In this document: piece after piece, positions 13,272 to 43,502 of the stretch
Layout of the letters: the number at the start of each line of letters is the position of its first letter
How positions within the stretch are numbered: the stretch's first letter is position 1
Assembly (NCBI GenBank): GCA_028715415.1
Contig: JAQURX010000003.1
Location: 121,903 to 173,935 of the forward strand
Direction: 5' to 3'
DNA length: 52,033 nucleotides
Source of the DNA: Candidatus Omnitrophota bacterium
GTDB lineage: Bacteria; Omnitrophota; Gorgyraeia; Gygaellales; Profunditerraquicolaceae
Notes under the pieces: generated by a model
What the model saw: the letters and a program-made list of their open reading frames with translations, nothing else
The model's database searches: none
What the model was told of the DNA's origin: nothing
Position numbers and translations under genes: made by a program

Positions 13272-13274
13272 TTA

Positions 13275-25211: not shown

Positions 25212-25222
25212 AGGGTGTCGTT

Positions 25223-26437: not shown

Positions 26438-26493
26438 GTTATAACGATAAAATTATTTTTTTCTTATGAGGCAACAAAGCCTTTTTAATTAAT

Positions 26494-27831: not shown

Positions 27832-27873
27832 TTATTAAAAAATGTCAGTTCAGTTTATAATTGGGAGATAACT

Positions 27874-28176: not shown

Positions 28177-28184
28177 GCTTTAAA

Positions 28185-29612
28185 ATGAATGAAAAATACG
28201 ACTATGATGCAGTAATTATTGGAGCCGGTATAAGCGGGCTTGTTTGCGGTTGTTATTTAGCAAAAGCCGGCTTAAAAACTTTAATAGTTGAGAAGAATTA
28301 TAAGCCGGGAGGGTATTGTTGCTCTTATGTAAGGGATGGGTACTATTTTAAACCAGGAGTGCATGCTTTAGGTGCTTTGCGTCCGGGGGGGAGCCTTAAT
28401 AAAATTCTTTCCGATTTAGGCGTACTAAGCGATCTTGTTTTGACAAGGCATGACCCATCTTATATTATTAAAACTCCAGAATTTGATTTTAATATTTATA
28501 ACTCTATTGATTCTACCATTGATGAATTCTGCAGGTGTTTTCCAAGGGAAAAAGATAATATCCGGGCTTTTTTAAAATATATTGTTTCTGCTGAATTAAA
28601 CTCGTTGCTAAAATTCAGAAGCTTGAATTTTGAGCAATTATTAAATAAATATTTTTTTGATAAAAGGCTTAAAACGGTTATTTCACTTTTTATCCTAGGT
28701 TTTTCGGGGTTACCTCCTTGGCAGGTTCCTTCAATAGTCGGCTGCTTTATTTTAAGAGATTTTGTTTTTGATGGAGGATATTGCCCCTCAAAAGGGATGC
28801 AGGATTTTCCTGATACATTATTAAGAAGGTTTAAAGAACTTAAAGGCGAAACAATTTTTTGCAAAAGAGCTACAAAAATAATTTGTGATGGCAAAAGGGC
28901 AGTTGGCATTACGTTGCAAGATGGCAGGGATATATTTTCAAAATATGTAATTTCTGCTTGTGATGCAAGGCAAACATTTATTGAATTCATACAAAATAAG
29001 CTTGATAAAGGTTTTGAAAATAAATTCAGAAAATATATTCCTTCTACATCGTTGTTTATAGTGCTCTTGGGATTGGATAAGCCTATTGGTTTATCGAGTT
29101 CAAATTACGGGTCAGAAATAATCTTGATTAATACCCTAGATATAAAGAAAATTTATTCAGCAATGCTTAGGTTCCAGAATAATTGTCTTCTCTCCTCTTT
29201 TCTTTCTTTACCCGGAGATTCGGTTCCCGATAAGATTTCAGTCCGTTTGGGCGTTAATACGATATACAGAGACCATGATTATTGGAAAAACGGAGGTGCT
29301 GAAAAACTGTCTTTTAGGATGATAAACATGGCAGAGAAAATTTTTCCGGGGTTGGGGAAAAGCATAAATTATAAATTCATCGCAACCCCAGTTACTTTTG
29401 AGGCTTGGACTGGTAATTATCAAGGTGCTGCTTATGGATGGGCTAGTATTTTTGACCAAATAGGCAATCCGGATATTTCACAAAGGGCACCAGTAGAAAA
29501 CCTTTATTTAACCGGGCATTGGGTTAATAAAAGCAGCGGCATTAGTGCGGTTTCCGTTTGTGGATTTGATACCGCTAAAATGATTATTAAAAACATGGAG
29601 AGCCAAAAGTAA
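28185..29612 (+). CDS. Phytoene-desaturase-like FAD-dependent oxidoreductase
   Basis: The 475-residue flavoprotein begins with an FAD dinucleotide motif (VIIGAGISGLVCGCYLAKAGLKT...VEK) and the CrtI/amine-oxidase-like GGYCCSYVRDGYYFKPGVHALG segment. It ends with LYLTGHWVNKSSGISAVSVCG, the usual C-terminal FAD loop of the family. Members desaturate or isomerise polyene and acyl chains. It starts 8 bp after the ACP and overlaps the GNAT gene by 1 bp, so it is in the same operon. Carotenoid synthesis is unlikely here because no phytoene synthase is present; a carrier-bound acyl substrate is a reasonable inference. Confidence 0.87.
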   Translation: MNEKYDYDAVIIGAGISGLVCGCYLAKAGLKTLIVEKNYKPGGYCCSYVRDGYYFKPGVHALGALRPGGSLNKILSDLGVLSDLVLTRHDPSYIIKTPEFDFNIYNSIDSTIDEFCRCFPREKDNIRAFLKYIVSAELNSLLKFRSLNFEQLLNKYFFDKRLKTVISLFILGFSGLPPWQVPSIVGCFILRDFVFDGGYCPSKGMQDFPDTLLRRFKELKGETIFCKRATKIICDGKRAVGITLQDGRDIFSKYVISACDARQTFIEFIQNKLDKGFENKFRKYIPSTSLFIVLLGLDKPIGLSSSNYGSEIILINTLDIKKIYSAMLRFQNNCLLSSFLSLPGDSVPDKISVRLGVNTIYRDHDYWKNGGAEKLSFRMINMAEKIFPGLGKSINYKFIATPVTFEAWTGNYQGAAYGWASIFDQIGNPDISQRAPVENLYLTGHWVNKSSGISAVSVCGFDTAKMIIKNMESQK

Positions 29613-30607
29613 TGGATAAAATAGATACCACTCTTTTTCGTAAGTACAATAATGGCGATGAGAAGCAGATTGTAGATTTATATAATCGTTGTTTTGTTTT
29701 AACAAGGCCAAGAATGCTTGATGATTGGTATTGGGAATTTAAGAATGGCTTAGATGGTAACGCGGTTATTTATGTAGCAGAGCTTGAAGGTTCAATAGTC
29801 GGGCATTTTTCCGGCGTACCATTTAAATTTAAGCTAGGCAATAATACTTTAACCGCTTACTATGCTTTGGATTTAATGGTTTCTCCCGAATGCCGCAGAA
29901 AAGGAATAGCTACCAGCATTTTAAAAACTTCGATTGGATCGGGAGTGTTAGAAAACAGCTTATCGTATGGAATGGCTAATGATATACATTTAAGCCTTGG
30001 AACACGCAAGTTTAATTATTTGACTTTGGGTTTCATTCCTAGGTTTATCAAAGATAATTCCGGATGGTTTTCCTTCAGCCGCATCAAAAATGTATTTAAT
30101 ATATACAGCAAAAAAAGGATTAAGATTACATCGATTGATTCATTTGATGAAGAAGCAAATGAGTTTTGGGCTAAAGTTTCTAAGAATTATTCGGCAGCAA
30201 CTGTTAGGGATGCGGATTATTTAAATTGGAGATATGTCTCTAAGCCGTATAATAACTATAAGAAGTTTTTGATAAGAGAGAATGGAGAAATAGTTGGATA
30301 CTTTGTTTTGGAATGCAAAACCGTTGTTGGATTAATTGTTGAAATACTGATAGATTGCCGTAAAGATGTTGTTAATGCGGCCTTAGATTTTATCGGGAAT
30401 TTTTTTAAAGAAAAAGGCATTCAGCAGGTTGTTTACTATGGGCTTGATGAGCAGTTATGCCCGTGGCTTAAGAGTAACCGGTTCGTTGTTTCTGGAAACT
30501 CGGAGCTCCAGTTTGTTATCAAGAATACAAATTACTTTGAAGGTTTTAATATTGCATTAGACAAAAAGAACTGGCTGCTTTCCTATGGAGATATGGAATC
30601 TCTTTAA
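29612..30607 (+). CDS. GNAT-family acyltransferase
   Basis: The 331-residue protein has a GNAT fold in the first 150 residues: YVAELEGSIVGHFSGVPF, then DLMVSPECRRKGIATSIL, where the RKGIA loop binds the acyl-CoA/ACP phosphopantetheine. The C-terminal half looks like a second, more divergent GNAT-like unit (FLIRENGEIVGYFVLE), so it may be a double-GNAT protein. The acyl donor and acceptor are unknown. It closes the ketosynthase operon and precedes the peptide gene by 61 bp, so it could join an acyl chain to the peptide, as reported for other lipidated peptides. This last point is inference. Confidence 0.8.
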   Translation: MDKIDTTLFRKYNNGDEKQIVDLYNRCFVLTRPRMLDDWYWEFKNGLDGNAVIYVAELEGSIVGHFSGVPFKFKLGNNTLTAYYALDLMVSPECRRKGIATSILKTSIGSGVLENSLSYGMANDIHLSLGTRKFNYLTLGFIPRFIKDNSGWFSFSRIKNVFNIYSKKRIKITSIDSFDEEANEFWAKVSKNYSAATVRDADYLNWRYVSKPYNNYKKFLIRENGEIVGYFVLECKTVVGLIVEILIDCRKDVVNAALDFIGNFFKEKGIQQVVYYGLDEQLCPWLKSNRFVVSGNSELQFVIKNTNYFEGFNIALDKKNWLLSYGDMESL

Positions 30608-30633: not shown

Positions 30634-30662
30634 TTGACAAAATAACCAAGTTTGTATATATT
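30634..30662 (+). promoter_or_regulatory. Strong promoter for the small peptide gene
   Basis: TTGACA at 30634-30639 and TATATT at 30657-30662 are separated by 17 bp. The ATG of the peptide gene follows after 6 bp, again without an SD, so translation may be leaderless. Confidence 0.8.
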
Positions 30663-30668
30663 AAATCC

Positions 30669-30797
30669 ATGAATAAAGAAAATAAAGTAGCACAAAAGTC
30701 GGATAAGCAGCAAAAGGATAAGCCGGTTTATAAGAAGCCTTCTTTTGTAAAGCACGGAAATTTACGCTTTATAAATATTAACGTAGGTTTATCTTAA
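30669..30797 (+). CDS. Candidate RiPP precursor peptide with lasso-leader-like motif
   Basis: The 42-residue peptide starts MNKENKVAQKSDKQQKDKP, a charged, soluble N-terminus rich in Lys and Gln. It continues VYKKPSFVKHGNLRFININV and ends GLS. Residues Tyr21, Pro24, Phe26 and Gly30 fit Y-x2-P-x-L-x3-G, the leader motif bound by lasso-peptide PqqD-type proteins, with Phe for Leu. The tail after Gly30 has only 12 residues, with neither the usual Thr near its start nor a Gly-initiated lasso core. The gene stands alone between its own promoter and a Rho-independent terminator, just before two PqqD genes and two radical SAM genes, as expected for a highly expressed precursor. A longer in-frame start at 30585 would lie inside the GNAT gene and lacks promoter support. 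Confidence 0.65.
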   Translation: MNKENKVAQKSDKQQKDKPVYKKPSFVKHGNLRFININVGLS

Positions 30798-30823
30798 TAT
30801 TCTTTTCTCTGTTTCTTAAATAT

Positions 30824-30864
30824 CGCCTATCTTAACTATAAAAAGGCAAGATAGGTGTTTTTTT
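30824..30864 (+). terminator. Rho-independent terminator after the peptide gene
   Basis: CGCCTATCTT (30824-30833) pairs with AAGATAGGTG (30848-30857), 10 bp with one G-T pair, followed by seven T (30858-30864). The 30865-30942 stretch shows nothing else recognisable. Confidence 0.9.
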
Positions 30865-30942
30865 GTCTCTAAACTCTATTCTTTTCTATCCCGCTGATCA
30901 TTAAAGAACTCACCTTTTTAATCAATATGGCCTAAAAAGATA

Positions 30943-30971
30943 TTGCTCGTGTTTTTGCCTTGTGGTAAGAT
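30943..30971 (+). promoter_or_regulatory. Promoter for the PqqD/radical SAM genes
   Basis: TTGCTC at 30943-30948 and TAAGAT at 30966-30971 are 17 bp apart. The first PqqD ATG lies 16 bp further, without an SD. Confidence 0.55.
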
Positions 30972-30987
30972 AATCTAATAGATTTCT

Positions 30988-31296
30988 ATGCCTATAAAGC
31001 CCAAACCCGATGATATATTAAGGCCTTCCAAAGACTTTCTTGGATTAGAGGTGGATGGAGTTTTTGTAATTGCCAGCCTTATCCATGGTAAAGAATATAA
31101 GCAAGATGAAGTATTTGAGTTAGACGATATAAGCAAGCGGATATGGCAATTGCTTGATGGGCGTAGGAGCTTAAAAGAGATAGCAGGTATGTTATCCTCA
31201 GATTTTGGAATATCTCATAATGAATTGCAGGAAGATATTTTAGAACTTACGGAAAAGTTTCTTGAAAAAGACTTGCTGATAAAAGCGATTGAATAA
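30988..31296 (+). CDS. PqqD-family peptide chaperone 1
   Basis: PqqD-type proteins (RiPP recognition elements) bind the leader of a precursor peptide and present it to modifying enzymes. The 102-residue protein has the fold's pattern: beta strands with VDGVFVIASL, the ELDDISKRIWQLLDG turn-helix and a winged-helix SLKEIAGMLSSDFGISHNELQEDI. It starts 191 bp after the peptide gene under its own likely promoter and is followed within 2 bp by a second, different PqqD gene. A stand-alone PqqD is typical for RiPP clusters; a related wing-helix role in polysaccharide loci cannot be excluded. Confidence 0.8.
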   Translation: MPIKPKPDDILRPSKDFLGLEVDGVFVIASLIHGKEYKQDEVFELDDISKRIWQLLDGRRSLKEIAGMLSSDFGISHNELQEDILELTEKFLEKDLLIKAIE

Positions 31297-31298
31297 AT

Positions 31299-31568
31299 AT
31301 GCCTGTTCAATACAAAATTAAGACAGAAGATGTTAGTTATAAATTAGTTGAGAATGAGGTAATTGTCCTTAATCTAAAGACCGGTGAATATTACACTTTA
31401 GATGAAACTGGTTCATTTGTATGGCTATTATTGGAGCAAAAGACATCAATTGATGAAATAGCCGGTAAATTATCAAAAAAATATGGTATTGATAAAAAGG
31501 TTGCCTTTTCTGATACTAAGCTTCTGTTAAAGAATTTCATGAAAGAAAACCTCATATTTATTATATAA
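31299..31568 (+). CDS. PqqD-family peptide chaperone 2
   Basis: The 89-residue protein has the classic PqqD lay-out: VENEVIVLNLKTGEYYTLDETGSFVWLLLEQ, then DEIAGKLSKKYG and a final helix. It is clearly different from PqqD 1 beyond the shared fold. It starts 2 bp after PqqD 1 and ends 40 bp before the first radical SAM/SPASM gene. Tandem unlike PqqD genes could each serve one of the two following radical SAM enzymes, which is inference. Confidence 0.85.
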   Translation: MPVQYKIKTEDVSYKLVENEVIVLNLKTGEYYTLDETGSFVWLLLEQKTSIDEIAGKLSKKYGIDKKVAFSDTKLLLKNFMKENLIFII

Positions 31569-31608
31569 GTTTGTTTTGAAATCTCCGGCATCCAACATTT
31601 CATTGTAA

Positions 31609-32676
31609 ATGATAAATTTATCCCTTCCTCCAGTTAGAGAAATCTTGAAACGGTTGATTAAAGAAAAAAGCGTTAAAAAGGCAGTTGGTTATGCTAATTT
31701 TATGCTTTCAAAGAAGCTGCCGTATTTCTTTTCGCCTCTTAGCATGAGAATTTCCATCACAAATAGGTGTAACCTTAATTGTTTGTTTTGTTCAAACCAA
31801 TATACTAAAGACAAAAAAAAGGATATGAGTTTTGAGGAGTTTAAATATATTTTAGGCCAATTCCCATTCTTAGAAGAAGTAAATTTAACTAGTTTCGGGG
31901 AGAGTTTTTTAAATAAAGATTTTTTTCTGATGTTGGAATACCTTAAGAAAAGGCGGATAAGCGCATGGTGTATTGATAATTTTGACCTGTTGAATGAAAA
32001 AACAGCCCGAGATTTGGTTAATGTCGGGACTATTAAGAAAATCTATGCTTCCATTGACGGGGGTGACAAAGCTACTTTTGAAATGTTAAGAGGAGGCGCA
32101 AAATTTGAAGATGTTGTTGGCAATATAAAATTGCTGGAGCGCCAGAAATTAATTCTTAATAAGAAGTTTCCCGAGATAAAACTAATTTGCACTGTTTCCA
32201 TGAAAAATATCCAAAATATGGGAAAAATAGTGGAATTAGCAAAGGAGCTTAACCTTAAAGAAGTTCTTTTCAGCCCTCTGCTCATAATGGATAATTATTC
32301 TCCGGGCTATGAAGAATTAATTAAGACTATGATGCCATCTATGGGCTTGTATCAAGAAGAGGGTAAGAAAGCGGTTCAGAAGGGTAGAGAGTTAGGGGTA
32401 AATGTTTGCATTACAGAGATAAAACGTTTTGCTACTGATTGCTATAAATGGCTTTGGAATGAAGTTGATATAGGTTATGATGGAGCTGTCTGGCCATGCT
32501 GCCGTATGGATTATGGAGGAGATGAAAAAAAGAATGTTCCTTATGGGAATATTTTTAAAGAGAGTTTTAGAAGAATTTGGCTTTCCGATAGATATAGATT
32601 AACCAGAGAGAAATTATCTAAAGGAGAGCTTGTGGAGGCATGCCGGTATAAAGGATTCTGTGAAGAAGGGGTTTGA
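31609..32676 (+). CDS. Radical SAM/SPASM-like enzyme 1
   Basis: The 355-residue protein has a radical SAM core with CNLNCLFC (Cys54, Cys58, Cys61) after a 45-residue N-terminal extension. Its C-terminal region resembles a SPASM/twitch domain, with Cys278, Cys297, Cys298, Cys345 and Cys351 as likely ligands of auxiliary iron-sulfur clusters. DGAVWPCCRMDYG and YGNIFKESFRRIW are the usual SPASM surroundings. SPASM enzymes often cross-link or epimerise RiPP residues, although some act in carbohydrate or enzyme maturation. It is a tandem paralogue of the next gene; both start with the same xREILxRLIKEK segment, which supports the chosen start. Confidence 0.85.
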   Translation: MINLSLPPVREILKRLIKEKSVKKAVGYANFMLSKKLPYFFSPLSMRISITNRCNLNCLFCSNQYTKDKKKDMSFEEFKYILGQFPFLEEVNLTSFGESFLNKDFFLMLEYLKKRRISAWCIDNFDLLNEKTARDLVNVGTIKKIYASIDGGDKATFEMLRGGAKFEDVVGNIKLLERQKLILNKKFPEIKLICTVSMKNIQNMGKIVELAKELNLKEVLFSPLLIMDNYSPGYEELIKTMMPSMGLYQEEGKKAVQKGRELGVNVCITEIKRFATDCYKWLWNEVDIGYDGAVWPCCRMDYGGDEKKNVPYGNIFKESFRRIWLSDRYRLTREKLSKGELVEACRYKGFCEEGV

Positions 32677-32679
32677 GCT

Positions 32680-33774
32680 ATGGTAAATGTTTTACTCCAA
32701 CATCCAAGAGAAATCCTCAGACGGCTAATTAAAGAAAAGAATCTTAGGAAAACAATCGGGTTTATTAATTTCTTGCTTTCAAAAAGAATCCCCTTCCTAT
32801 TTTCCCCGCTTTGCCTGCAAATCTCGTTAACCAACAGATGTAATTTGAAATGCTTAAGTTGTTCCAATAAGCATTTCAAAGGTGAAAGGTCTGATTTAAG
32901 CTACGATGATTTCAAATATATTATTGGCCAATTCCCTTTTCTTGAGCATGTTGATACCACAAGCTTCGGAGAGTGTTTTTTAAATAAAGACTTTTTTAAA
33001 ATGTTGGAATATTTGAAGAAGAAAATGATTACGGTATCATTTGCCAATAATTTTACTCTTTTAGATAAAGAGATTGCTCAAAGGATTTTATCAGCTGGCA
33101 ATATCACAACAATCGTTGCTTCAATTGATGCCCCAGATAAAGAAACTTTTGAGGCGTTAAGAGTTGGCGCAAAATTTGAGGAGGCCATAGAGAATATTAA
33201 GTATATTGTAGGTTTAAGGAATAAGCATAACAACAAGCTTCTGCATTTTAAAGTCAATTGTACTGTTTCAAGCAAGAATGTTTTAAGCATGGTTAAGATG
33301 GTTGAATTAACAAAGGATTTAGGTTTTGAAGGGATATTTTTCATGCCAGCGATTAGAATGGATGTTTTTCCCGGTACTTATCTAGATCTGTTAGATAGCA
33401 TTAAGCCAGAAGCATCTGTTTTTGCTGAAGAAGGCGCAAAAGCGCTTAAAAGAGGGAGAGAGTTAAATTGTGATGTCATTGTCGGGAATGTAAGGCATCC
33501 GGCTTCTCTTTGTTATTCGCAAAGTTTGCTGTGGGATAAAATAATGATAGAGCTCGATGGTTCTGTTTGGCCCTGTTGTTTTATGAATTTAAATTATGTG
33601 CCTTCCGAAGGAAAGATTTCTGCTTTTGGGAATATCTTTAATGAAAGCTTTCGCTCTATTTGGCTTTCAAAGAGGTATAAAGATTTAAGGTTAAAGATGG
33701 CCCGAGGGGAATTAACAAAGGATTGTTATTTTAAAGGATTTTGCATAGCAGATGGAGAAAAAGCTTTAGCATGA
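32680..33774 (+). CDS. Radical SAM/SPASM-like enzyme 2
   Basis: The 364-residue protein is a diverged copy of the previous enzyme. It has the same N-terminal extension (HPREILRRLIKEK), CNLKCLSC at Cys54, Cys58 and Cys61, and a C-terminal SPASM-like Cys set in VWPCCFMNL and CYFKGFC. The gap to the first copy is only 3 bp. Having two tandem enzymes suggests two consecutive or different modifications of one peptide; redundancy is also possible. Its 3' end overlaps the deacetylase start by 4 bp (ATGA). Confidence 0.85.
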   Translation: MVNVLLQHPREILRRLIKEKNLRKTIGFINFLLSKRIPFLFSPLCLQISLTNRCNLKCLSCSNKHFKGERSDLSYDDFKYIIGQFPFLEHVDTTSFGECFLNKDFFKMLEYLKKKMITVSFANNFTLLDKEIAQRILSAGNITTIVASIDAPDKETFEALRVGAKFEEAIENIKYIVGLRNKHNNKLLHFKVNCTVSSKNVLSMVKMVELTKDLGFEGIFFMPAIRMDVFPGTYLDLLDSIKPEASVFAEEGAKALKRGRELNCDVIVGNVRHPASLCYSQSLLWDKIMIELDGSVWPCCFMNLNYVPSEGKISAFGNIFNESFRSIWLSKRYKDLRLKMARGELTKDCYFKGFCIADGEKALA

Positions 33775-34616
33775 AAGATACAAATAGGCTTTTAATTATT
33801 ACCGCTGATGATTTTGGGATGTGTCCTTCAGTAAATAAGGCTATTAAAGAGGTTGTGGATTTTGGGTTAGTAAAGAATTGCGATTTGATTCCAGTTGCCC
33901 CTGCATTTAAAGACGCAGTCAATATTTGTAAAAACTATCCTCTCCTTGACATAGGCGTGCATATCACACTAACAAGCGAATTCCCCGCTCTTTCTTATCG
34001 CCCAATCTCAAATAGTAATAAAGTAAGTTCTTTAATTGATCCTAAAAGCGGCGCCTTTTTAAAAAATGTTAAATTATTTCAATCAAGAGCTAAACCCATT
34101 GAGGTATATAGGGAAGTAGTTGCCCAGATAGAATATATACTCTCTACCGGCATCAAGCCAACGCATTTAAGTTCGCATATCTTTGTGCTTAATTGTTTCG
34201 GGGCGGAATTATCTGCAATGATAAGGTTTAATAATATGATTATGGAGATTTCAAAAGAATATAAGTTGCCATTTAGGATGCCTTTAAGAATAGCGCATGC
34301 CGGAGTTTACAATGGGCTGGCTGAAATGTATAGAAAACAAGGATATTTAGTATTGGATGATTTAATTTCCGGATACAAGATTGATAAAAAAAGAAAGGAA
34401 TCGTTTTACATGCGCGCCTTATCTGGGCTAAATGAAGGGATTACTGAACTCTTGGTGCATTGTGGTAATCCCGGCGCAGAATTAAAAAAGATTAATCCGC
34501 GCAGGTGGGCCTGTTATAATGAAGAAAAACGTATCTTCACAAGCCAATCTATGAAAGAGCATATAGAGAAAAACAGGATCAAGCTTATTAATTGGAGCGA
34601 TTTAAAAATCCGCTAA
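33771..34616 (+). CDS. YdjC/ChbG-family carbohydrate deacetylase
   Basis: The family removes acetyl groups from N-acetylated sugars such as chitobiose. The ATG at 33771, overlapping the upstream stop in ATGA, is chosen over one 30 bp earlier that reads into unrelated residues. The protein has 281 residues. The metal-site start is ITADDFGMCPSVN, the second site is DIGVHITLTSEF, and SSHIFVLN corresponds to the family's HxH-type metal region with one His retained. Metal binding is plausible but the substrate is unknown. It lies among glycosyltransferase genes, consistent with a role on a sugar. Confidence 0.82.
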   Translation: MKDTNRLLIITADDFGMCPSVNKAIKEVVDFGLVKNCDLIPVAPAFKDAVNICKNYPLLDIGVHITLTSEFPALSYRPISNSNKVSSLIDPKSGAFLKNVKLFQSRAKPIEVYREVVAQIEYILSTGIKPTHLSSHIFVLNCFGAELSAMIRFNNMIMEISKEYKLPFRMPLRIAHAGVYNGLAEMYRKQGYLVLDDLISGYKIDKKRKESFYMRALSGLNEGITELLVHCGNPGAELKKINPRRWACYNEEKRIFTSQSMKEHIEKNRIKLINWSDLKIR

Positions 34617-34634
34617 TTCTTTAAGGAATAACTA

Positions 34635-35750
34635 ATGCCTTTAGAAATATTAACTATTGAGTATCTGGATAAATGTAATCTTAGCTGTGCGCATTGCGCA
34701 GTAAACGCATCTCCTAGTGGAGATAATAAACTAAGCCTTGAGGATGCTTTCTCTTGCATCCTGGCTGCCAGAGATCATGGAGTAAAGTGTATTTCTCTGG
34801 CAGGAGGAGAGCCATTTTTGGTTTTTGAAGAGTTATGTAATATTGCGCAATATTCCAATTCGTTAGGTTTAAAGTTCAATACTTTTACAAATGCTTTCTG
34901 GGCTAAAGATTTGGCTGAAACGAAGAAATTCTTAGAGCCATTGTATAGCAAAGGATTAAGTTCTTTGCATTTGAGCCTTGATTGTTTCCATTTAGAAGAG
35001 GGTATAGGCATCCAGAATTTAATTAATATTGCAAAAGTTGCAAAGAAGCTGGGGCTTAAACTAACGATAAATGTATTGCAGGTGGAACAAGGCAAAATCA
35101 GCTATTCTTATGTAAAGAAATTATTTAAAGGTTATGACATTATATTTGAATACGAATCAGTAATGCCGATGGGAAGGGCAGCGAAATTAAGAAATAGGTT
35201 AATTAAAGATAATCTTAAAAATTACTCCAGCGGGTGCCGTAGTTTTGGAAGCCCGATCATTTCTCCAAAAGGAGATGTGTTTGCTTGTGATGGAGCGTAC
35301 CTTTTGGCTGGTCAAGGAAACCCTCTTAAAATTGGCAACATACACGAAACTCCGGTAAAACAGATTTTTTCTAAGTTTTGCGGCTTAACATTGGTAAATT
35401 TCATTGCTACTTTTGGCCCGAGTTCAATTTGTGAATTTGTAAACCCCCAGAATATCCCTGTTTATGGGGATAGCAAGCATACCTGTGATTTTTGTAATAG
35501 AATCTTGAATATTAAAGAAAATTCAGACGCAATTATTGAAAAGTTCAAGCTTCCCGATTCTGCTCTAAAAATTAAGCTGGAGTTAACCGAGATATGCTCA
35601 AAGAATGTTTATAGCCTGAGGACGCAAGAGTCTCCTTGGGATTGGAAGATTAAGAAGTTTTGCAGGGCGAAATTGCCTACTTTTTTGTCGATATGGAGAT
35701 TTGCAAGAACAACTGCGGGAAAATTATCTCCCAGGACGATTAAGGATTAA
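34635..35750 (+). CDS. Radical SAM enzyme 3 with C-terminal SPASM-like region
   Basis: The 371-residue protein has the radical SAM motif CNLSCAHC (Cys14, Cys18, Cys21) very near the N-terminus, then SLAGGEPFLVFEEL, the GGEP motif that contacts SAM. The C-terminal region GCRSFGSPIISPKGDVFACDGA and HTCDFCNRI has Cys residues compatible with extra clusters. It is unlike the two tandem enzymes (no N-terminal extension, different GGEP context), so it is a separate acquisition. It is followed 2 bp later by a glycosyltransferase gene. Confidence 0.83.
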   Translation: MPLEILTIEYLDKCNLSCAHCAVNASPSGDNKLSLEDAFSCILAARDHGVKCISLAGGEPFLVFEELCNIAQYSNSLGLKFNTFTNAFWAKDLAETKKFLEPLYSKGLSSLHLSLDCFHLEEGIGIQNLINIAKVAKKLGLKLTINVLQVEQGKISYSYVKKLFKGYDIIFEYESVMPMGRAAKLRNRLIKDNLKNYSSGCRSFGSPIISPKGDVFACDGAYLLAGQGNPLKIGNIHETPVKQIFSKFCGLTLVNFIATFGPSSICEFVNPQNIPVYGDSKHTCDFCNRILNIKENSDAIIEKFKLPDSALKIKLELTEICSKNVYSLRTQESPWDWKIKKFCRAKLPTFLSIWRFARTTAGKLSPRTIKD

Positions 35751-35752
35751 TA

Positions 35753-36886
35753 ATGACGGATAGAAAATTTCCTTTAGTTTCTTTTTGCATGATTGTTAAA
35801 AATGAAGAAAAACTGCTTCCTCAATGTTTGGATTCGATAGAAGATTTGGCAGATGAGATTATCATAGTTGATAATGGTTCAAGTGACTCAACTTGCGAAA
35901 TAGCAGAGCGTTTTGGCGCACGGATTATTCATAGCAATATTAAAGAAGACCTGGCAAGCCTTAGGAATATATATTTGAAGTTAGCTAAAGGGGAATGGAT
36001 TTTAAGTTTGGACGCTGATGAGAGGATAAGCAGTAAAGATATCCCGAAGTTACAGAAAATGTTAAAGGATAAAAAAGTTAATGCCTATGGATTTATCTCC
36101 AGATTATATACAAATTCTTACGACCTGCTCAATGATTGGTTTCTTTGCAGAAAAGAATATCCTAAGGAAGAAAAATTCTCCGGTTGCCGAGGATATATTG
36201 ATATGTATTGGGGCTACAGGTTGTTCCGTAATCATAAAGGGCTTTATTATGAGGGTTTCGGCCATGAGACGATAGACCGATGTATAGTTAAAAAAGGCGG
36301 TAAAGCCGTTGACACCGACATTTTAATCCATCATTTTAAAGAGCTTAAGCCCAAAAGGACAATTGAGAAAATAGCAAAGGCGTATTTTGAATTAGAGAAA
36401 AGAAAGAATGCAGAGGTTTTTAAAGACCATTATCGCTATTATTATAGGCTTGGAAGAGAGGCTCTCCTTGGAGCCAAAGATTTAGAAGCCTCTTTTAAGT
36501 ATTTAAAAAAGTCTATCCAGCTTAAGCCATCATTTCCTTTTAGCTATTTTCTTCTAGGCCTTGCCTATAAAGAAAACAGGGATTACCGACAAGCAATTTT
36601 ATCGCTTAAAGAGTCAATTAAATTAAAGAAAGATTATTTAGGCGGGCATTATCTTCTGGGTATTGTTTATGATGAAATGGATAAATATGAATTAGCTGAA
36701 AAAAAATTCAGGGAAGCTTTAGTAATAAACCGGGATCATCCTATTGTTTTAAATAGCTTGGGGGTTGTTTTGGTTAAACAGAATAAGATTAAAGAAGGGG
36801 TTAGGTTCTTCAAAAAAGCCCTGGTTATCGACCCGAGGCTAAAGACAGCAAAATCAAATTTAAGAAATTGTTTGCACTATGATTAA
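35753..36886 (+). CDS. GT2 glycosyltransferase with C-terminal TPR repeats (1)
   Basis: The 377-residue protein has a GT-A glycosyltransferase domain: VSFCMIVKNEEKLLPQCLDSI, EIIIVDNGSSDSTCEIA and the metal-binding LSLDADERIS. TPR-type helical pairs follow from about residue 225 (YRYYYRLGREALLGAKDLEASFKYL and later repeats). GT2-TPR fusions are found in SunS-like peptide glycosyltransferases and in many uncharacterised surface loci. The donor sugar is unknown. The gene overlaps the next by 8 bp. Confidence 0.85.
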   Translation: MTDRKFPLVSFCMIVKNEEKLLPQCLDSIEDLADEIIIVDNGSSDSTCEIAERFGARIIHSNIKEDLASLRNIYLKLAKGEWILSLDADERISSKDIPKLQKMLKDKKVNAYGFISRLYTNSYDLLNDWFLCRKEYPKEEKFSGCRGYIDMYWGYRLFRNHKGLYYEGFGHETIDRCIVKKGGKAVDTDILIHHFKELKPKRTIEKIAKAYFELEKRKNAEVFKDHYRYYYRLGREALLGAKDLEASFKYLKKSIQLKPSFPFSYFLLGLAYKENRDYRQAILSLKESIKLKKDYLGGHYLLGIVYDEMDKYELAEKKFREALVINRDHPIVLNSLGVVLVKQNKIKEGVRFFKKALVIDPRLKTAKSNLRNCLHYD

Positions 36887-38021
36887 GAGAATGAAAAAAA
36901 CCTCAATGTTTGAAATAATCATTGTTACTTATAACGCCTTGTCCAAGCTGAAACGTTGCTTGGAATCTGTGCAGAAATATACCAAGGATTTTGATTATCT
37001 TCTTACTATTGTAGATAACCACAGTACGGACGGCACTAAAGAGTATTTAGAAAGACTCAAAAAGATAAAGAAGGTGCAGATTATTAGAAAAGAACAGAAT
37101 ATAGGTTTTTGTAAGGCGGCAAATAGCGTTTTAAAGAAAAGTAGGGCAAAGTTTATAGTCTTACTTGATGATGATGTGGAGGTTACTAGGGAATGGCTTA
37201 AGAAGATGTATGAGCAGATTAAAAGCAATCAACGAGTGGGAATAGTTGGCTGTAAAGTTGTCCTCCCCGATAATCGGATAAATTCTGCTGAATTTAGAAT
37301 TAATACGGTTGAGTTGGTAGGCGTAGGTGAAATAGATAGAGGGCAGCGTAATTACATAAGAGAGTGTGATTCCTTAATTGGCCCGTGCTGGTTGCTGCGC
37401 AGGGATGTTGTTAAAAAAGTAGGTTATTTTGACGAAAGATTTTTCCCTTGTGAATTTGAAGATGTAGATTATTGCTTAAGGGTAAGGCTTGCTGGGTATA
37501 AAATAGTTTACTGTGGAGAAGTTAAGATTGTTCATCACCATCTTCTAAGAAGGATAAAAACCAAATATATGTTTAACAATAAGAAAATGTTTTTTAAGAA
37601 GTGGAAAAATTTGTTATCAAATTTTCCGCTTAAAGACAGTCATCAGGTTGATAAACATATATCTAATGCTTTGTGTTTAATGAAGCATAATGAATTCCGA
37701 AGGTCGTTGGTTGAGTTAAAGAAAGCAGAGAAGATCGATAAAAGGTTCCAGGAGCCTTTATATAAAGGAATAGTTTTTGAGGGGCTTAAATTAGATACAC
37801 ATGCTATCCGGGAATTTAGAAAAGCAGTAAAACTAAATCCGGGTAATTTCTTAGCTTTATTGCGATTAGCTTTTTTGTATCGGAAAAAACGCTGTTTTAA
37901 AGATGCGAAGGTGTTTTCTAAGCAAAGCCTTGATTTAATTCCTAATGATCAAAGCAGCTTGGCGCATTTTATTAATGAAAGCAGGTTAGTTTCCCGAGTA
38001 TGTAATACTCATTTATGCTAA
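36879..38021 (+). CDS. GT2 glycosyltransferase with C-terminal TPR-like repeats (2)
   Basis: The 380-residue protein again joins a GT2 domain to helical repeats. FEIIIVTYNALSKLKRCLESV, IVDNHSTDGTKEYL and FIVLLDDDVEV give the nucleotide-sugar and metal sites, and FDERFFPCEFEDVDYCLR holds the likely catalytic ED motif. TPR-like segments occupy about 265-375. An ATG at 36891 (MKKTS) is an alternative start, with AAGAG before it. It is only loosely similar to the preceding fusion, more like a rhamnosyltransferase-type GT2. Confidence 0.84.
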   Translation: MIKRMKKTSMFEIIIVTYNALSKLKRCLESVQKYTKDFDYLLTIVDNHSTDGTKEYLERLKKIKKVQIIRKEQNIGFCKAANSVLKKSRAKFIVLLDDDVEVTREWLKKMYEQIKSNQRVGIVGCKVVLPDNRINSAEFRINTVELVGVGEIDRGQRNYIRECDSLIGPCWLLRRDVVKKVGYFDERFFPCEFEDVDYCLRVRLAGYKIVYCGEVKIVHHHLLRRIKTKYMFNNKKMFFKKWKNLLSNFPLKDSHQVDKHISNALCLMKHNEFRRSLVELKKAEKIDKRFQEPLYKGIVFEGLKLDTHAIREFRKAVKLNPGNFLALLRLAFLYRKKRCFKDAKVFSKQSLDLIPNDQSSLAHFINESRLVSRVCNTHLC

Positions 38022-38051
38022 AGAGAATCTTTAACCATATTTTACGAATCA

Positions 38052-39239
38052 ATGGGCGAAAAATTAAATAAAATTCTTTTAGTCAGTTATTCTTATAAGC
38101 CGAGAATCGGGGGTTTGGAGTTATTTGTGGAGAATTTAGCCCAAAATCAACTCTTAAAAGGTATTGATGTAAAGATAATCACCTCAAGGTTTAAAAAAGA
38201 TGAAAAAAAATCCGAGAGGATTTCAGGGTTAGTAGTGGAAAGGCTTATGCCGAATTTATTTTGGGGGGAGAATGGGCATTGGTTGAACAATATTCTTATC
38301 TTCCCATTACTGGCTGTTCATTTTAAGTCTGCTCTTAATATTTATAAATCAATTGCTAGATTTAAACCTCAAGTGATAACAATTTGCTATCCTACTCCAC
38401 CTGCTATTTATTTTATTCTTTTCGGAAGATTGTTAAGAATTCCTATAGTTGTGGCTTTGCACGGAGAAATTGTTTTAAATGTCCCAACTGTGTGCATGGT
38501 TGAGAAGATTTTGTTCAAATTTATTTTAAGCAATGCCAACTATGTCACAGCTTGTTCAAAAAGCATCCTTGAAGAAGCCGCTAAGTTTGCCCCCAGATTA
38601 AAGAAGAGTTCTTCTTATATTTATAATGGTGTATCTTTAGGCGGTTCTTCCGGGCCCCCATTAACAAAAGAACGTATTCATAAGAATAATTATATCCTCA
38701 GTATTGCCAATCTATGGCCTTACAAAGGTATTGATATATTATTGATGGCAATGAAGAGAGTTTATGAAAAAGGGTACCAGAGCGATTTGATTGTTATAGG
38801 AGAGGGAGATCAGAGAGATAAGCTGGAAAAGATGATTAGTTTTTTACGGCTTGAAGGAAAGGTTTTCTTAAAGGGCAAGGTAGATAATGAAAATGAAAAA
38901 AATAATTTTCTGAATAATTGTGAGTTTTTTGTCTTGCCATCGCGAGTTGAGCCTTTTGGGATTGTTAACCTTGAAGCTATGGCAGCAGGAAAGGCCATAG
39001 TAGGCACAAGGTCAGGAGGGATCCCGGAGATTGTAAAGGATGGTATAAACGGGATATTGGTTGACCCGTTTAATGATATAGCGCTTTCCGAAGGGATTAT
39101 GCGGCTTTTAGATGATTGCGATTTAAGTTTAAAAATGGGATTGCGCGGGAAAGAAATTGCCCAAGATAAAGCTTTTTCCTGGGGTAGTGTTACTGAGCAA
39201 TATATAGAAGTACAGAAGAAGGTATTGATAAGAGAATAG
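38052..39239 (+). CDS. GT4-family glycosyltransferase
   Basis: The 395-residue protein has a GT-B fold of the GT4 family: KILLVSYSYKPRIGGLELFVENLA at the N-terminus with the IGG loop, ILSIANLWPYKGIDILL for the donor domain, and the diagnostic EPFGIVNLEAMAAGKAIVGT with EPFG and E-x7-E. It transfers a sugar from a nucleotide donor to a lipid or glycan acceptor. It is the third glycosyltransferase in a row, and its 3' end faces the HprK-like gene across only 2 bp. Confidence 0.9.
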   Translation: MGEKLNKILLVSYSYKPRIGGLELFVENLAQNQLLKGIDVKIITSRFKKDEKKSERISGLVVERLMPNLFWGENGHWLNNILIFPLLAVHFKSALNIYKSIARFKPQVITICYPTPPAIYFILFGRLLRIPIVVALHGEIVLNVPTVCMVEKILFKFILSNANYVTACSKSILEEAAKFAPRLKKSSSYIYNGVSLGGSSGPPLTKERIHKNNYILSIANLWPYKGIDILLMAMKRVYEKGYQSDLIVIGEGDQRDKLEKMISFLRLEGKVFLKGKVDNENEKNNFLNNCEFFVLPSRVEPFGIVNLEAMAAGKAIVGTRSGGIPEIVKDGINGILVDPFNDIALSEGIMRLLDDCDLSLKMGLRGKEIAQDKAFSWGSVTEQYIEVQKKVLIRE

Positions 39240-39241
39240 CC

Positions 39242-40183
39242 TTAAGGCGCGAGGTTTTTTATTATTGCAGCTGCTTCATCAATTTTATCAAGGCTGTATG
39301 ATAAGTAATATGATTTGGTGTCCTCGGCAAGTTTTGCTAATACCTGGATTTGTTTTTGCCGGATAGCAATGTTTTTTTCAAAAGACAAAGAGCAATCTTT
39401 ATCCATACAAAGCAAAGAAAAAGCAGTTTCGCTATTCATAGGTTTAAGGGTTACTTTTCCCGCCTTATCTTTCGAAACCGGGAATATGATGATTTTAGGT
39501 TTACAGCTTTGCACGTAGCAACTGGGGAAATATTTTATTATATCAAATGATATTTTTTCTTGCTTACCGATATTGCTTTTCTTTAATGATTTTAGAAAAG
39601 GGAATAATTTAATGGAATTTTCTTCCAATCCAATCTTTAAAGGAAAGGCAAAAAGCTCCCCTTTGTCATAAATAACAAATTCATCGGAAAGAAAACCAAG
39701 CCCATTTTCTGCTAATTTTACAGCCATAGTGCTTTTCCCGGATTTAAAATGCCCGCATATAAGAATTCCGGAATTATTTTTGACTAAAGCAGCAGCGTGA
39801 ATCAGGAAAACGTTCTTGTATTTCAAGATATGGCGTAAGGGATGCAGTATTAAAAGATCAAAGATAGCTTCGTTTGACAGAGTGGAAGGAATAAGGAATT
39901 TCCCTTTTATAAGGTTTGAGTTTGGATAAGCCCGGACATCAATATTCTTCAACCAGCAATCTAGTATTAAATCTTTCTCTTTTGTGTTGAATCCGTCTGA
40001 TCTGTTGAAAGGCAAGGCATTTGTTTCTTCTAATTCAAAATTAATAGTAGTGAGATTTTTAGTTTTGTATAATTTATTTGTTAAATTCAATTGCTCTGTA
40101 GCCAACTTTGCTATAAAATGGCTATTAGTGTTAATGCAGATATTAAATTTGTGTAAGGCAAAGTTCTTAATGTATTTCATCAA
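39242..40183 (-). CDS. HPr-kinase-like protein (HprK-related)
   Basis: The 313-residue protein has a P-loop GHFKSGKST (144-152) followed by GLGFLSDEFVIYD, which matches the catalytic-site style of HPr kinase/phosphorylase and of HprK-like peptide kinases in lasso clusters. There is no recognisable N-terminal HPr-binding domain. Similar proteins often accompany PqqD, an NTP_transf_5 protein and an ABC exporter, exactly as here. It is translated after, and overlaps by 17 bp, the third PqqD gene on the minus strand. Confidence 0.78.
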   Translation of the reverse strand: MMKYIKNFALHKFNICINTNSHFIAKLATEQLNLTNKLYKTKNLTTINFELEETNALPFNRSDGFNTKEKDLILDCWLKNIDVRAYPNSNLIKGKFLIPSTLSNEAIFDLLILHPLRHILKYKNVFLIHAAALVKNNSGILICGHFKSGKSTMAVKLAENGLGFLSDEFVIYDKGELFAFPLKIGLEENSIKLFPFLKSLKKSNIGKQEKISFDIIKYFPSCYVQSCKPKIIIFPVSKDKAGKVTLKPMNSETAFSLLCMDKDCSLSFEKNIAIRQKQIQVLAKLAEDTKSYYLSYSLDKIDEAAAIIKNLAP

Positions 40184-40472
40184 TGATGTTTTCTTTTTTT
40201 AGGTTTTTAATCAATTCTCTAAATTCAATGCTTATTTTATCTTTATGTTTTGGGTATCTGTTGTAAAGTGTATTAAGTATTTTATTCTGGCTAAAATTCA
40301 ACGTGAGCATTTTCCAGATTTTTAGGCTTATTCCATTTAATTCAAAAATACTAATCTCCGGGGTAGTTAATTTGAAAAGCAGGTTTTTCTTGTTGATGCA
40401 TCCCCAGATAACCTTATAGAGGTCTATCCTGTATTTTTTATCCATTTTGTTATTTATTTCTTTAAAAGCCAT
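40167..40472 (-). CDS. PqqD-family protein 3
   Basis: The 101-residue protein fits the PqqD fold: LLFKLTTPEISIFELNGISLKIWKMLTLN, then a helix-turn-helix ILNTLYNRYPKHKDKISIEFRELIKNL. It is the most divergent of the three PqqD proteins in the window, with the normal ELNG-x-xxIW turn. It is on the opposite strand, together with the HprK-like kinase, and is divergent from the ABC exporter. It may therefore be the leader-binding partner of the kinase. Confidence 0.75.
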   Translation of the reverse strand: MAFKEINNKMDKKYRIDLYKVIWGCINKKNLLFKLTTPEISIFELNGISLKIWKMLTLNFSQNKILNTLYNRYPKHKDKISIEFRELIKNLKKENIIDEIH

Positions 40473-40478
40473 GATAGA

Positions 40479-40507
40479 ATTATATTATAGAAAACCAATA
40501 ATTGGAA
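40479..40507 (-). promoter_or_regulatory. Divergent intergenic region with minus-strand promoter and small palindrome
   Basis: On the minus strand a TATAAT (40479-40484) ends 6 bp before the PqqD 3 start, again leaderless in style; the -35 (TTCCAA, 40502-40507) is weak. A perfect palindrome CCAATAATTGG (40495-40505) overlaps it and could be an operator shared with the divergent ABC gene. Confidence 0.45.
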
Positions 40508-40548
40508 GTATTAAAGGGTTTTATACATTTGCTAACATAAGGGAATAA

Positions 40549-42327
40549 ATGGAAAGTTTGATTATCAAAATAAAAAAATCTGTTAAAGAAGTCGGTTTAA
40601 GCCTTAAATTGTTAGGCAAATTTAAGAAATATATCTTTCGCTATTGGAAACAGCAGTTGTTAATGTTTGTTTTGTCAATTATTTTTGTAATCTTTGAGCT
40701 AATCAACCCCTATCTTCTTGGAAGGGAGGTTCTTGATAAAGGTATTTTATCAAAAAACACAAAGGCTTTCCTCATGTTTTCTCTTATTGGAGCGCTGATT
40801 TATATTGTTAATATGGTGCTTTCCAGTATCCATAGGTATGTAAAGAATTATATTATAAGAAGGATACATTTGGATTTGTCAAAAGACGTTTTGAAGTGTG
40901 TGAACGAGTTTTCTTTGGCGACTTTGCAAGATAGGGCTACCGGAGAACACCTTTTTAGAAGTACGCAGGATGTGTCAGCGGTTTCCAATGTTATAAATGA
41001 TGTTTTGCATAATTTGTTCCTTTCCGTTTTTAAGATAATCCTTATCGCTTCTATTATAATCTTTATTAAATGGGAAATAGTTGCCTTTATGTTTGCTTAT
41101 CAAATAGCTGTGGTAATTTTGATTAATCCATATATCAAAAAGATCCAGAATTTAATAGTTTTAAATTCTGAGAAATCCGAGGATTTATTTAAAAGATTGG
41201 TTGAAATTTTCTCGCATCTTTACATAATTAAGTCTTTTGGCACTATGTCAAAAGAGTTAAAAAGATATTTCAGGGAATTAATTTCAAGGACGAGAGTTGA
41301 AATTGATGAAACAAAATCTAAGATTACCTTTGACTTCTTGCAAACCATAACCAATAAGCTATTCTTCGCAAGCGTGGGTTTCTTTGGTTTGTTTCTTGTT
41401 ATTAAGGATAAAATGACGTTAGGTATCCTAGGCGTTATTATGATTTATATTTCCAAGGGCCTAGAATCATTCACAGAGTTGGTTACTTCTTTTAATCAGG
41501 TTATCATAAACCGTGTTTCTTTGGAAAGAGTGGAAGAAATCTTTGATACAAAGATAGAATTAAAAGAACCCCACGATGCTAAAACTTTATTAATTGAAAA
41601 AGGAAAAGCCGAGTTTAGAAATGTTACTTTTGGTTATAAAAAGGACTACTATGTATTTAAGCATGCCAATTTTTTTATCATGCCGAGTACTCATATAGCT
41701 TTGGCAGGAGCTTCTGGATGCGGCAAAACAACAATTCTTAACTTAATTTTAAGATTATATGATGTTAATGATGGAGCTGTATTATTGGACAATCACGATG
41801 TAAAAAGCCTAAAACGCAGAAGTTTATATGATCAGATAAGCATTGCTTCGCAGAACCCTTTGCTTTGGGATAGTACTATTTTTGCCAATATCGCATATCG
41901 TAAAAAGAATATGAAGATGGAAGAATTGATCGAAGCGGCAAAGTTAGCTGAAGCGCATGATTTCATTATGGAACTGCCTCAACAGTATTATACAATAATC
42001 GGAGAAATGGCTTGTAAGATTTCTGAAGGGCAAAAACAACGCCTAAGCCTTGCGCGGGCTATACTAGGAAACCCAAAAATCTTATTATTGGATGAAGCAA
42101 TGTCGTCTCTTGATTCCGCAACTGAAGACAAAATAATTGATAATATAAGAAATAGATTTGTAAAATCTACTGTAATACTTGTGTCGCATCGGGTTTCTAG
42201 TATAAAAAAAATGGATTTAGTTTATTTCATTGAAGGCCCTAACAAGATAGAAATTGATACCCACTCCAAACTTATAGAGAAAAGCCCGAAATACAGGTCT
42301 TTGTTTGCCAGCCAGCTAGGCGTCTAA
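40549..42327 (+). CDS. ABC exporter (fused membrane and ATPase domains)
   Basis: The 592-residue protein has about six membrane helices in residues 30-320, then an ATPase domain: Walker A GASGCGKTT (387-395), signature ISEGQKQRLSLARA, Walker B ILLLDEAMSSLD and switch His in LVSHRVSS. It works as a homodimer exporter. It lacks the N-terminal C39 peptidase domain found in leader-cleaving peptide exporters, so any peptide leader would need another protease. AAGGGA before the ATG is a usable SD. Placed with PqqD, the kinase-like protein and NTP_transf_5 genes, it is probably the exporter of the locus product. Confidence 0.92.
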   Translation: MESLIIKIKKSVKEVGLSLKLLGKFKKYIFRYWKQQLLMFVLSIIFVIFELINPYLLGREVLDKGILSKNTKAFLMFSLIGALIYIVNMVLSSIHRYVKNYIIRRIHLDLSKDVLKCVNEFSLATLQDRATGEHLFRSTQDVSAVSNVINDVLHNLFLSVFKIILIASIIIFIKWEIVAFMFAYQIAVVILINPYIKKIQNLIVLNSEKSEDLFKRLVEIFSHLYIIKSFGTMSKELKRYFRELISRTRVEIDETKSKITFDFLQTITNKLFFASVGFFGLFLVIKDKMTLGILGVIMIYISKGLESFTELVTSFNQVIINRVSLERVEEIFDTKIELKEPHDAKTLLIEKGKAEFRNVTFGYKKDYYVFKHANFFIMPSTHIALAGASGCGKTTILNLILRLYDVNDGAVLLDNHDVKSLKRRSLYDQISIASQNPLLWDSTIFANIAYRKKNMKMEELIEAAKLAEAHDFIMELPQQYYTIIGEMACKISEGQKQRLSLARAILGNPKILLLDEAMSSLDSATEDKIIDNIRNRFVKSTVILVSHRVSSIKKMDLVYFIEGPNKIEIDTHSKLIEKSPKYRSLFASQLGV

Positions 42328-42344
42328 AAGATTTCTTTACAAGA

Positions 42345-43502
42345 ATGTCAAAGAGCAATTGCATAGAAAAGAATATCCTTGTTTGCGAGAAGTTGCTTCT
42401 TTTATGTGCCAATGTTAAATCCCACCAAAAGCAGAATGAAATAAGTCAATTAATAAACCAAGGTATCAACTGGCAAAAATTCTTGCAGCTTGCTTATGAT
42501 AACGCAGTTTCTTCACTAACATTTAATTCACTTAAATTTTATCTGCCCATAAATGATATTGAGAGAGAGGCCCTCCAAAGGCTTAAGATATCTTATCAAG
42601 CTTGCACAGTTAGGAATATCTATTATAAGGAAGAACTAAAAAAGATAATTTCTTTATTGATGGATAAGGGAATAAAGGTTATCCCGCTTAAAGGGATCTT
42701 CTTGTCCGAGAGGCTTTATGGAGATGCCTCTAGCAGGGATGAGAGTGTTGATTTGGATTTATTAATAAGGCAAGAAGATAGAGCTAAAGCAAGGCCATTA
42801 ATAGAAAGAACAGGGTATGTTTGCGAAGGTTCTGGAGAGATTAAAGAATGGGAGTGGGTTGATATTTATTCAAGGCCCAAAAGAAAGATTATTGAGTTGC
42901 ATTGGGACATAACAATGATGGCCAGAAGCAAGGAGCGTATAGAGGGTTTTTGGCAAGGCGCCCAATTAGTTGAGCGAGAAGGGATTAAGTATTATGATTT
43001 CCTGCCAGAGGAGCTCTTGCTTTATTTATCCGCGCATTTAACAAATAGCGATTCATTCCGTAAACTCAGGTCTATGTGTGATATTGACCGTCTTTTAGAA
43101 AAGTATGGCAGACAGATTAATTGGGATAGCGTTGTTGAAAAATCCGGAGATTGGCATCTGCGTAGTTCGCTTTATGCCGCGTTAAAACTGCAGGCAGAAT
43201 TATTTGAACCAAAATACCCCCGAAGTATTGTCCGTATGCTCGGTATCTCGTTACCTAAGCGTTTGTTTATCAATACATTTGCTAATAAAGGAGTCCTGTT
43301 AAAAAGCAATTTAAGGAGGCGCATTCTGGATAATTTTCTAGCGTATACTTTTTTTGAAATAATTGAGGCATCTAGCTTTAATGATTATTTGGCTATAACT
43401 AAAAGAATATTTTTCCCTCCAAGAGATTCTGTAAGCACTAACTATATCTTAAGGATTATCAATGGGATATCAAAAATTCTCCGTAAACGTGACTGCACTT
43501 GA
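42345..43502 (+). CDS. NTP_transf_5-type nucleotidyltransferase-like protein
   Basis: The 385-residue protein carries the family pattern: MDKGIKVIPLKGIFLSERLYGD, DLDLLIRQEDRAKARPLIERTGY with the D-x-D metal pair, and IIELHWDIT followed by LPEELLLYLSAHLTN. The family is uncharacterised but widely co-occurs with PqqD, HprK-like and ABC exporter genes in lasso and other peptide loci. It might add a nucleotide to a peptide or lipid carrier. It begins 17 bp after the ABC exporter and ends the accessory island. Confidence 0.83.
   Translation: MSKSNCIEKNILVCEKLLLLCANVKSHQKQNEISQLINQGINWQKFLQLAYDNAVSSLTFNSLKFYLPINDIEREALQRLKISYQACTVRNIYYKEELKKIISLLMDKGIKVIPLKGIFLSERLYGDASSRDESVDLDLLIRQEDRAKARPLIERTGYVCEGSGEIKEWEWVDIYSRPKRKIIELHWDITMMARSKERIEGFWQGAQLVEREGIKYYDFLPEELLLYLSAHLTNSDSFRKLRSMCDIDRLLEKYGRQINWDSVVEKSGDWHLRSSLYAALKLQAELFEPKYPRSIVRMLGISLPKRLFINTFANKGVLLKSNLRRRILDNFLAYTFFEIIEASSFNDYLAITKRIFFPPRDSVSTNYILRIINGISKILRKRDCT

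Follow-up and report, generated by a model that had tools for sequence, protein, structure and literature searches.

A probable phosphopeptide-type RiPP cluster with radical SAM enzymes in an exopolysaccharide locus of Candidatus Omnitrophota

Introduction

Linear polyphosphorylated peptides (LPPs), a type of ribosomally synthesised and post-translationally modified peptide (RiPP), were reported by Popov et al. in 2026 as restricted to Bacillota (PMC13381572). They are defined by an SpI peptidase, a discrete RiPP recognition element (RRE), an HprK-like kinase, an NTP transferase and an MsbA-like exporter, encoded in capsule loci; the leader has the form YxxPxVLxHQxIxFETxxS, its Tyr is held by an Asp of the RRE (D70 of LppB), and the 45-aa core is phosphorylated on Ser3, with radical S-adenosylmethionine (SAM) enzymes going unmentioned in the main text (PMC13381572). 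In the paeninodin and pseudomycoidin lasso systems, which also use a discrete RRE, a kinase and an NTP transferase of the same type act on a C-terminal Ser (PMC9266682). Here, we describe a tiny peptide gene lying within an exopolysaccharide locus of a Candidatus Omnitrophota genome (GCA_028715415.1, G000 in our sample), on a 52,033-nucleotide stretch of contig JAQURX010000003.1 (the window, to which all unprefixed coordinates refer). We consider it reasonably probable that this locus is a phosphopeptide cluster of the LPP kind to which radical SAM enzymes have been added. Our literature search found no paper joining Omnitrophota with lasso peptides, the family to which the leader had been likened in an original prediction made from the sequence.

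Results

The candidate precursor is a 42-residue open reading frame (ORF) on the forward strand (30669–30797; MNKENKVAQKSDKQQKDKPVYKKPSFVKHGNLRFININVGLS), with the leader Y21-K-K-P24-S-F26-V-K-H29-G30-N-L32-R-F34 and a tail of 6–9 residues (...ININVGLS) ending in Ser42. Y21, P24, F26 and G30 lie where the original prediction placed them, and the promoter and terminator that it ascribed to the gene were both recovered. The sigma-70-like promoter (30634–30662, forward strand; TTGACA-17-TATATT) matches the consensus at 11 of 12 positions; such sites are frequent by chance (mean of 2.3 in shuffles of the region), and a transcript from this one would begin at the ATG, giving a leaderless message. 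The rho-independent terminator (30824–30864, forward strand), a 10-bp outer stem followed by a T run, has a stability of −14.9 kcal/mol (z = −4.5) that was equalled in none of 200 shuffles. A short ORF with the lasso-type pattern Y..P.[LVIF]...G arises in 8% of shuffled windows; this motif was therefore rejected as sole evidence, and the reality of the peptide rests on its conservation in related genomes. The longer LPP-type leader pattern appeared in 0 of 300 shuffles, a somewhat generous result, because the pattern was a relaxed version of the published consensus picked after the peptide had been seen. No model for these peptides was found in NCBIfam.

The nearest relative of the peptide was found in Candidatus Omnitrophota STB_109 (JAQTPE010000014.1; G361), as YKKPAIVKHGDLSFIKIGLS, compared with YKKPSFVKHGNLRFININVGLS in the window. 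The two genes differ mostly by silent changes, affecting about eight codons, and the C-terminal GLS is retained, so that both peptides end in Ser; this substitution pattern indicates that the peptide is under purifying selection. The STB_109 gene has its own promoter (TTGACA-17-TATACT) plus GGAGGAGG, and a strong ribosome-binding site. A PqqD frame is 22 bp away from it, a family 2 glycosyltransferase (GT2) frame 33 bp, a homologue of the third radical SAM enzyme of the window (rSAM3; 44% identity) 0.3 kb and an HprK gene 2.4 kb; its neighbours also include counterparts of both window GT2 enzymes (GT2a, 59%; GT2b, 41%) and one further radical SAM gene. A conserved peptide is present at the same position in a related genome, the close version occurring in only one other sampled genome. 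Among 384 genomes of the phylum, this close version and rSAM3 (E < 1e-30) are confined to the same two.

More distant relatives were found in other Omnitrophota. An initial peptide search of 147 relatives gave one informative match, contig G138:C9, on which nine PqqD domains are encoded and, in the same region, five peptides that fit the pattern Y-x-x-P-x-L-x-[KR]-[FY]; a sixth peptide of this kind adjoins PqqD in G067. The matches in G049, G076 and G081 were discarded as chance hits in wrong frames or proteins. A profile seeded only from the window genome, G138 and G067 was run over the 384 phylum genomes and identified new peptides in G325, G141, G361 and G124, each no more than 1.1 kb from PqqD. 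A match of similar score in G089 had no PqqD near it; neither this match nor those in G306 (also without PqqD nearby), G360, G180 and G400 were convincing. Once the new peptides had been added to the profile, those of G309, G194, G378 and G215 were recovered more firmly. G141 and G325 each contain five tandem peptides that share a leader but differ in their tails. When loci were compared with custom profiles, the set common to the surroundings of the peptides proved to be PqqD, GT2 and HprK, with NTP_transf_5 and an exporter in many loci: among eight further peptide loci that have PqqD, a GT2 gene was present within 8 kb in every case and HprK in seven. Radical SAM genes accompany the peptides at about half of the loci (G000, G361, G141, G325, G138 and G067, with a distant one in G215), their frames lying 0–34 bp from peptides in G141, G325, G138 and G067; none was found near the peptides of G124, G194, G378 and G309. 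Thus, of the expectation that homologues would combine a Y-P-F-G pattern and a variable tail with PqqD and radical SAM genes, the Tyr, the Pro, the hydrophobic residue, the variable tail and the adjacent PqqD (beside nearly all) were borne out, but the Gly is kept only in part and radical SAM genes in about half.

Several related loci fuse these components. GT2-PqqD and GT2-HprK fusions were detected, together with proteins in which an SpI-type signal peptidase (archaeal type, TIGR02228) is joined to NTP_transf_5 or GNAT; stand-alone signal peptidases of this type occur elsewhere in the phylum at further PqqD loci (L070, L072, L073 and L079). In G309:C37 (L132, 9027–9452), a PqqD protein bears a C-terminal tail of its own, SYEPPAFEKYLEIRRGRSVA, containing YEPPAF, a natural fusion of a leader binder to a precursor-like motif. 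The GT2-HprK proteins (L103, 17066–19120; L133, 4086–6188; L134, 11975–13657) represent an unusual pairing of kinase and glycosyltransferase. The five-peptide arrays (L099, 9389–10334, in G141; L100, about 12370–13276, in G325) have as neighbours a radical SAM gene, a GT2-PqqD fusion, HprK, an ABC-2 exporter and an SpI-NTP_transf_5 fusion, and the G138:C9 region (L064 and L065) extends over about 24 kb; some of its nine PqqD domains are fused C-terminally to GT2 enzymes, and it encodes at least five precursors. On a short contig without PqqD (L135/L121, G351:C53), a peptide MRDEPRPKAKRPYRPPRLVRYGDLYRLTRVKGGASSDGGG... is accompanied by an ABC-2 exporter and by genes resembling HprK and NTP_transf_5.

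The window leader agrees with the LPP consensus at Y, P, two hydrophobic positions (F/I and V), H, a further hydrophobic position (L) and F, but not at Q, E, T and the Ser at LPP spacing. Two discrete RREs are encoded downstream from the peptide on the forward strand, PqqD1 (30988–31296) and PqqD2 (31299–31568), and both have Asp at the position aligned with LppB D70; the third RRE-like protein, PqqD3 (40167–40472, reverse strand), has Glu there and falls slightly below the Pfam cut-off. The nearest solved relatives of PqqD2 are TbiB1 and PbaB1, two lasso RREs whose structures include the leader, and that of PqqD1 is PqqD itself. A genome-wide look confined PqqD to the peptide locus in this genome. 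The HprK-related kinase (39242–40183, reverse strand), which shares an operon with PqqD3, retains the P-loop (GHFKSGKS), H129, K150 and D167; an MsbA-like ABC exporter without a peptidase domain (40549–42327) and an NTP_transf_5 protein of the PsmN/LppN type with its DxD retained (42345–43502) follow on the forward strand. In leader and gene set (discrete YxxP-type RRE, HprK-like kinase, NTP transferase, MsbA-like exporter, polysaccharide context, no lasso cyclase), the nearest known system is the LPP family, which fits better than lasso clusters, and the description of the locus as a new lasso-leader-like family is not supported as worded. The locus differs from published LPPs in phylum, in its radical SAM enzymes, in a tail of 6–9 residues with a terminal Ser rather than a 45-aa core, and in the absence of the SpI peptidase.

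Three radical SAM genes lie on the forward strand. rSAM1 (31609–32676) and rSAM2 (32680–33774) are tandem radical SAM/SPASM enzymes with 50% identity to each other. For rSAM3 (34635–35750), the best relative, both by sequence and by predicted fold, is EpeE/YydG, the epipeptide enzyme. The AlphaFold models of rSAM3 and of the kinase (fold match, PEPCK/HprK) are of low confidence (pLDDT 58 and 50, respectively), so these fold matches serve only as agreement with the sequence results. Cys223 of EpeE is its proposed hydrogen donor (PMC8326336). In a profile alignment, with EpeE numbering anchored by the D210A mutant chain (8ai6; Ala at chain position 235, an offset of 25), Cys223 and Asp210 correspond to Asp219 and Pro207 in rSAM3, and to Gly and Pro in the STB_109 enzyme. 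The reading of rSAM3 as an EpeE-type epimerase was therefore rejected: epimerisation of this kind is unlikely from the alignment, and the chemistry could be a crosslink, a desaturation or an epimerisation with another donor. Speculatively, Cys117 (in SLDCFH), which the window and STB_109 enzymes share, might be such a donor, and F-I-N in the window (F-I-K in STB_109) might suit a three-residue cyclophane. EpeE also differs in working without need of a leader. A scan of the genome collection with rSAM3 returned only STB_109 as a close match, with distant Aminicenantes and Clostridia proteins lacking such a peptide, and no relative was found in viral contigs.

The remaining genes of the locus are on the forward strand. 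A YdjC/HpnK-like carbohydrate deacetylase gene (33741–34616), missed in the original prediction, lies between rSAM2 and rSAM3; its mechanically assigned TTG start overlaps rSAM2, and the true start is probably slightly further downstream. GT2a (35753–36886) has a GT2 domain and a tetratricopeptide repeat (TPR) region, and GT2b (36879–38021) a GT2 domain with a TPR-like C-terminus. The GT2 part of GT2a is close to GmaR and SunS, which are protein or peptide glycosyltransferases, and the protein has weak MftF and SunS matches. The place in the peptide system of the GT4 glycosyltransferase (38052–39239) is uncertain. Domains were assigned from Pfam and NCBIfam profile matches, and all the gene assignments made previously hold. 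The adjoining exopolysaccharide genes encode Poly_export, Wzz, an XrtA/PEP-CTERM-type ATPase (TIGR03015; 46392–47222), an O-antigen ligase and a flippase. Just upstream from the peptide gene lies a single run of genes (23997–30607) resembling a small cluster for a polyketide or an unusual lipid; it encodes two ketosynthases, an acyl carrier protein, a B12-binding radical SAM protein, a GNAT protein and a CrtI/carotenoid-isomerase-like oxidoreductase.

Discussion

The locus combines the features of RRE-dependent RiPP clusters in general: an RRE, a precursor with a conserved leader and a variable tail, and modifying enzymes. Orphan clusters in the available portions of the RRE-Finder report (PMC7470986) and its structure-based follow-up (PMC12710340) come without a described precursor family, kinase link or phylum. 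An LPP-kind cluster with added radical SAM enzymes is indicated by the silently diverged STB_109 homologue with its GLS end and adjacent PqqD, GT2, rSAM3 and HprK genes, by the restriction of the close peptide and rSAM3 to the same two genomes, and by the proximity of PqqD, HprK and GT2 to the profile-found peptides. It is further indicated by the leader consensus and the Tyr-holding Asp of PqqD1 and PqqD2, by the C-terminal Ser of both close peptides, the residue on which related kinases and NTP transferases act, by the fusion of the same parts (GT2-PqqD, GT2-HprK, SpI-NTP_transf_5 and PqqD-YEPPAF) at related loci, and by a position before exopolysaccharide genes recalling the capsule clusters of LPPs. 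The original proposal of a RiPP precursor whose leader is of the PqqD-binding type, with a short tail, nearby radical SAM enzymes and enzymes for phosphorylation and glycosylation, is, to this extent, supported.

A short transcript of its own would give rise to the peptide. By analogy with related systems that have been characterised, the leader (YKKPSF...H...L.F) would dock in strand form along the groove of PqqD1 or PqqD2, which may pass it to the enzymes; rSAM3, perhaps with rSAM1 and rSAM2, would then act on the FI[N/K]I stretch and the kinase would phosphorylate Ser42. The NTP_transf_5 protein may subsequently decorate the phosphate with a nucleotide or a sugar, as PsmN acts on phosphate in pseudomycoidin (PMC9266682), GT2a and GT2b may attach sugars, and the MsbA-like pump would export the product, the likely order being docking, radical SAM and kinase reactions, decoration of the phosphate and export.

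Several observations weigh against this reading. The SpI peptidase, a hallmark of LPPs that is present in sister Omnitrophota loci, is absent from the window, and the genome yields only one weak signal-peptidase match, at a distant place (E = 0.01); SpI, B2 and C39 domains, the candidates for leader removal, are all absent from the locus. The peptide has no Ser at the LPP Ser3 site, only the C-terminal one, and the second acidic residue past the P-loop of the kinase is Glu, rather than the Asp of its relatives. The close version has only two known members, and rSAM1/2, YdjC, GT4 and any detectable NTP_transf_5 or exporter are missing from the short STB_109 contig; the window genes are thus not conserved together as a complete set.

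A plain LPP-like system, consisting of the peptide, PqqDs, kinase, NTP_transf_5 and exporter, with the radical SAM enzymes, deacetylase and glycosyltransferases serving exopolysaccharide or other products, would account for the flanking polysaccharide genes, the absence of rSAM1/2 beside the STB_109 peptide and the related loci without nearby radical SAM genes. We nevertheless regard it as unlikely, as rSAM3 tracks the close peptide perfectly and has an EpeE-like, peptide-modifying fold, and as radical SAM frames almost abut the peptides of four other genomes. We see somewhat more merit, while still doubting it, in a separate Omnitrophota-wide RiPP class: short-tailed, often multi-copy peptides, modified by radical SAM enzymes, phosphorylated and glycosylated, made in exopolysaccharide loci with RREs fused to glycosyltransferases. 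As the window version has no dedicated leader peptidase, the peptide may be borne in its entirety as part of the surface or of the polysaccharide.

A small cofactor of the pyrroloquinoline quinone (PQQ) or mycofactocin type, formed by radical SAM action on a few tail residues and decorated by glycosyltransferases, the remainder being degraded, would share with those systems a short precursor, a PqqD-type RRE and a radical SAM enzyme, with GT2 in mycofactocin, and would suit the very short tail, the relationship of PqqD1 to PqqD and the MftF and SunS matches of GT2a. It is improbable, however, because the tail varies between loci and between tandem copies, unlike a cofactor, and no matches at the level of PqqE or MftC were obtained; to our knowledge, neither set includes a kinase, NTP_transf_5 or variable precursors in multiple copies. 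Still less probable is a degenerate lasso cluster that has lost its cyclase and protease, to which the lasso-type RREs, the YxxP motif and the paeninodin-type kinase and NTP_transf_5 might point. As originally claimed, both lasso enzymes are missing from the locus: the B2 protease (PF13471) is absent from the whole window genome and from 10 of 11 genomes, with a sub-cut-off match in the eleventh, and no cyclase was found at the loci, Asn-synthase proteins of the window genome being encoded only elsewhere (contigs C1, C12 and C15). Moreover, the leader agrees with the LPP consensus in its H and F, WxxP is the motif of paeninodin leaders, a lasso would need a far longer tail than that of the window peptide, and the peptide is under purifying selection. 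We attach equally little weight to a chance ORF or small regulator; such an origin would be compatible with the frequency of the lasso motif in shuffles and with the finding of the close version in two genomes only, but not readily with the silent substitutions, the promoters in both genomes, the terminator and the PqqD genes beside nearly all relatives.

If the locus is an LPP-kind cluster with added radical SAM enzymes, a phosphopeptide RiPP type described only from Bacillota would be extended to an uncultured phylum and joined to radical SAM chemistry, and its exopolysaccharide surroundings suggest a surface role. The compact relatives, with their tandem precursor arrays and their RRE-GT2, kinase-GT2 and peptidase-NTP_transf_5 fusions, give pointers as to which enzymes act on the peptide and offer single proteins for testing. 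Through these systems, the role of NTP_transf_5 and the reason for the presence of peptides in polysaccharide loci become testable.

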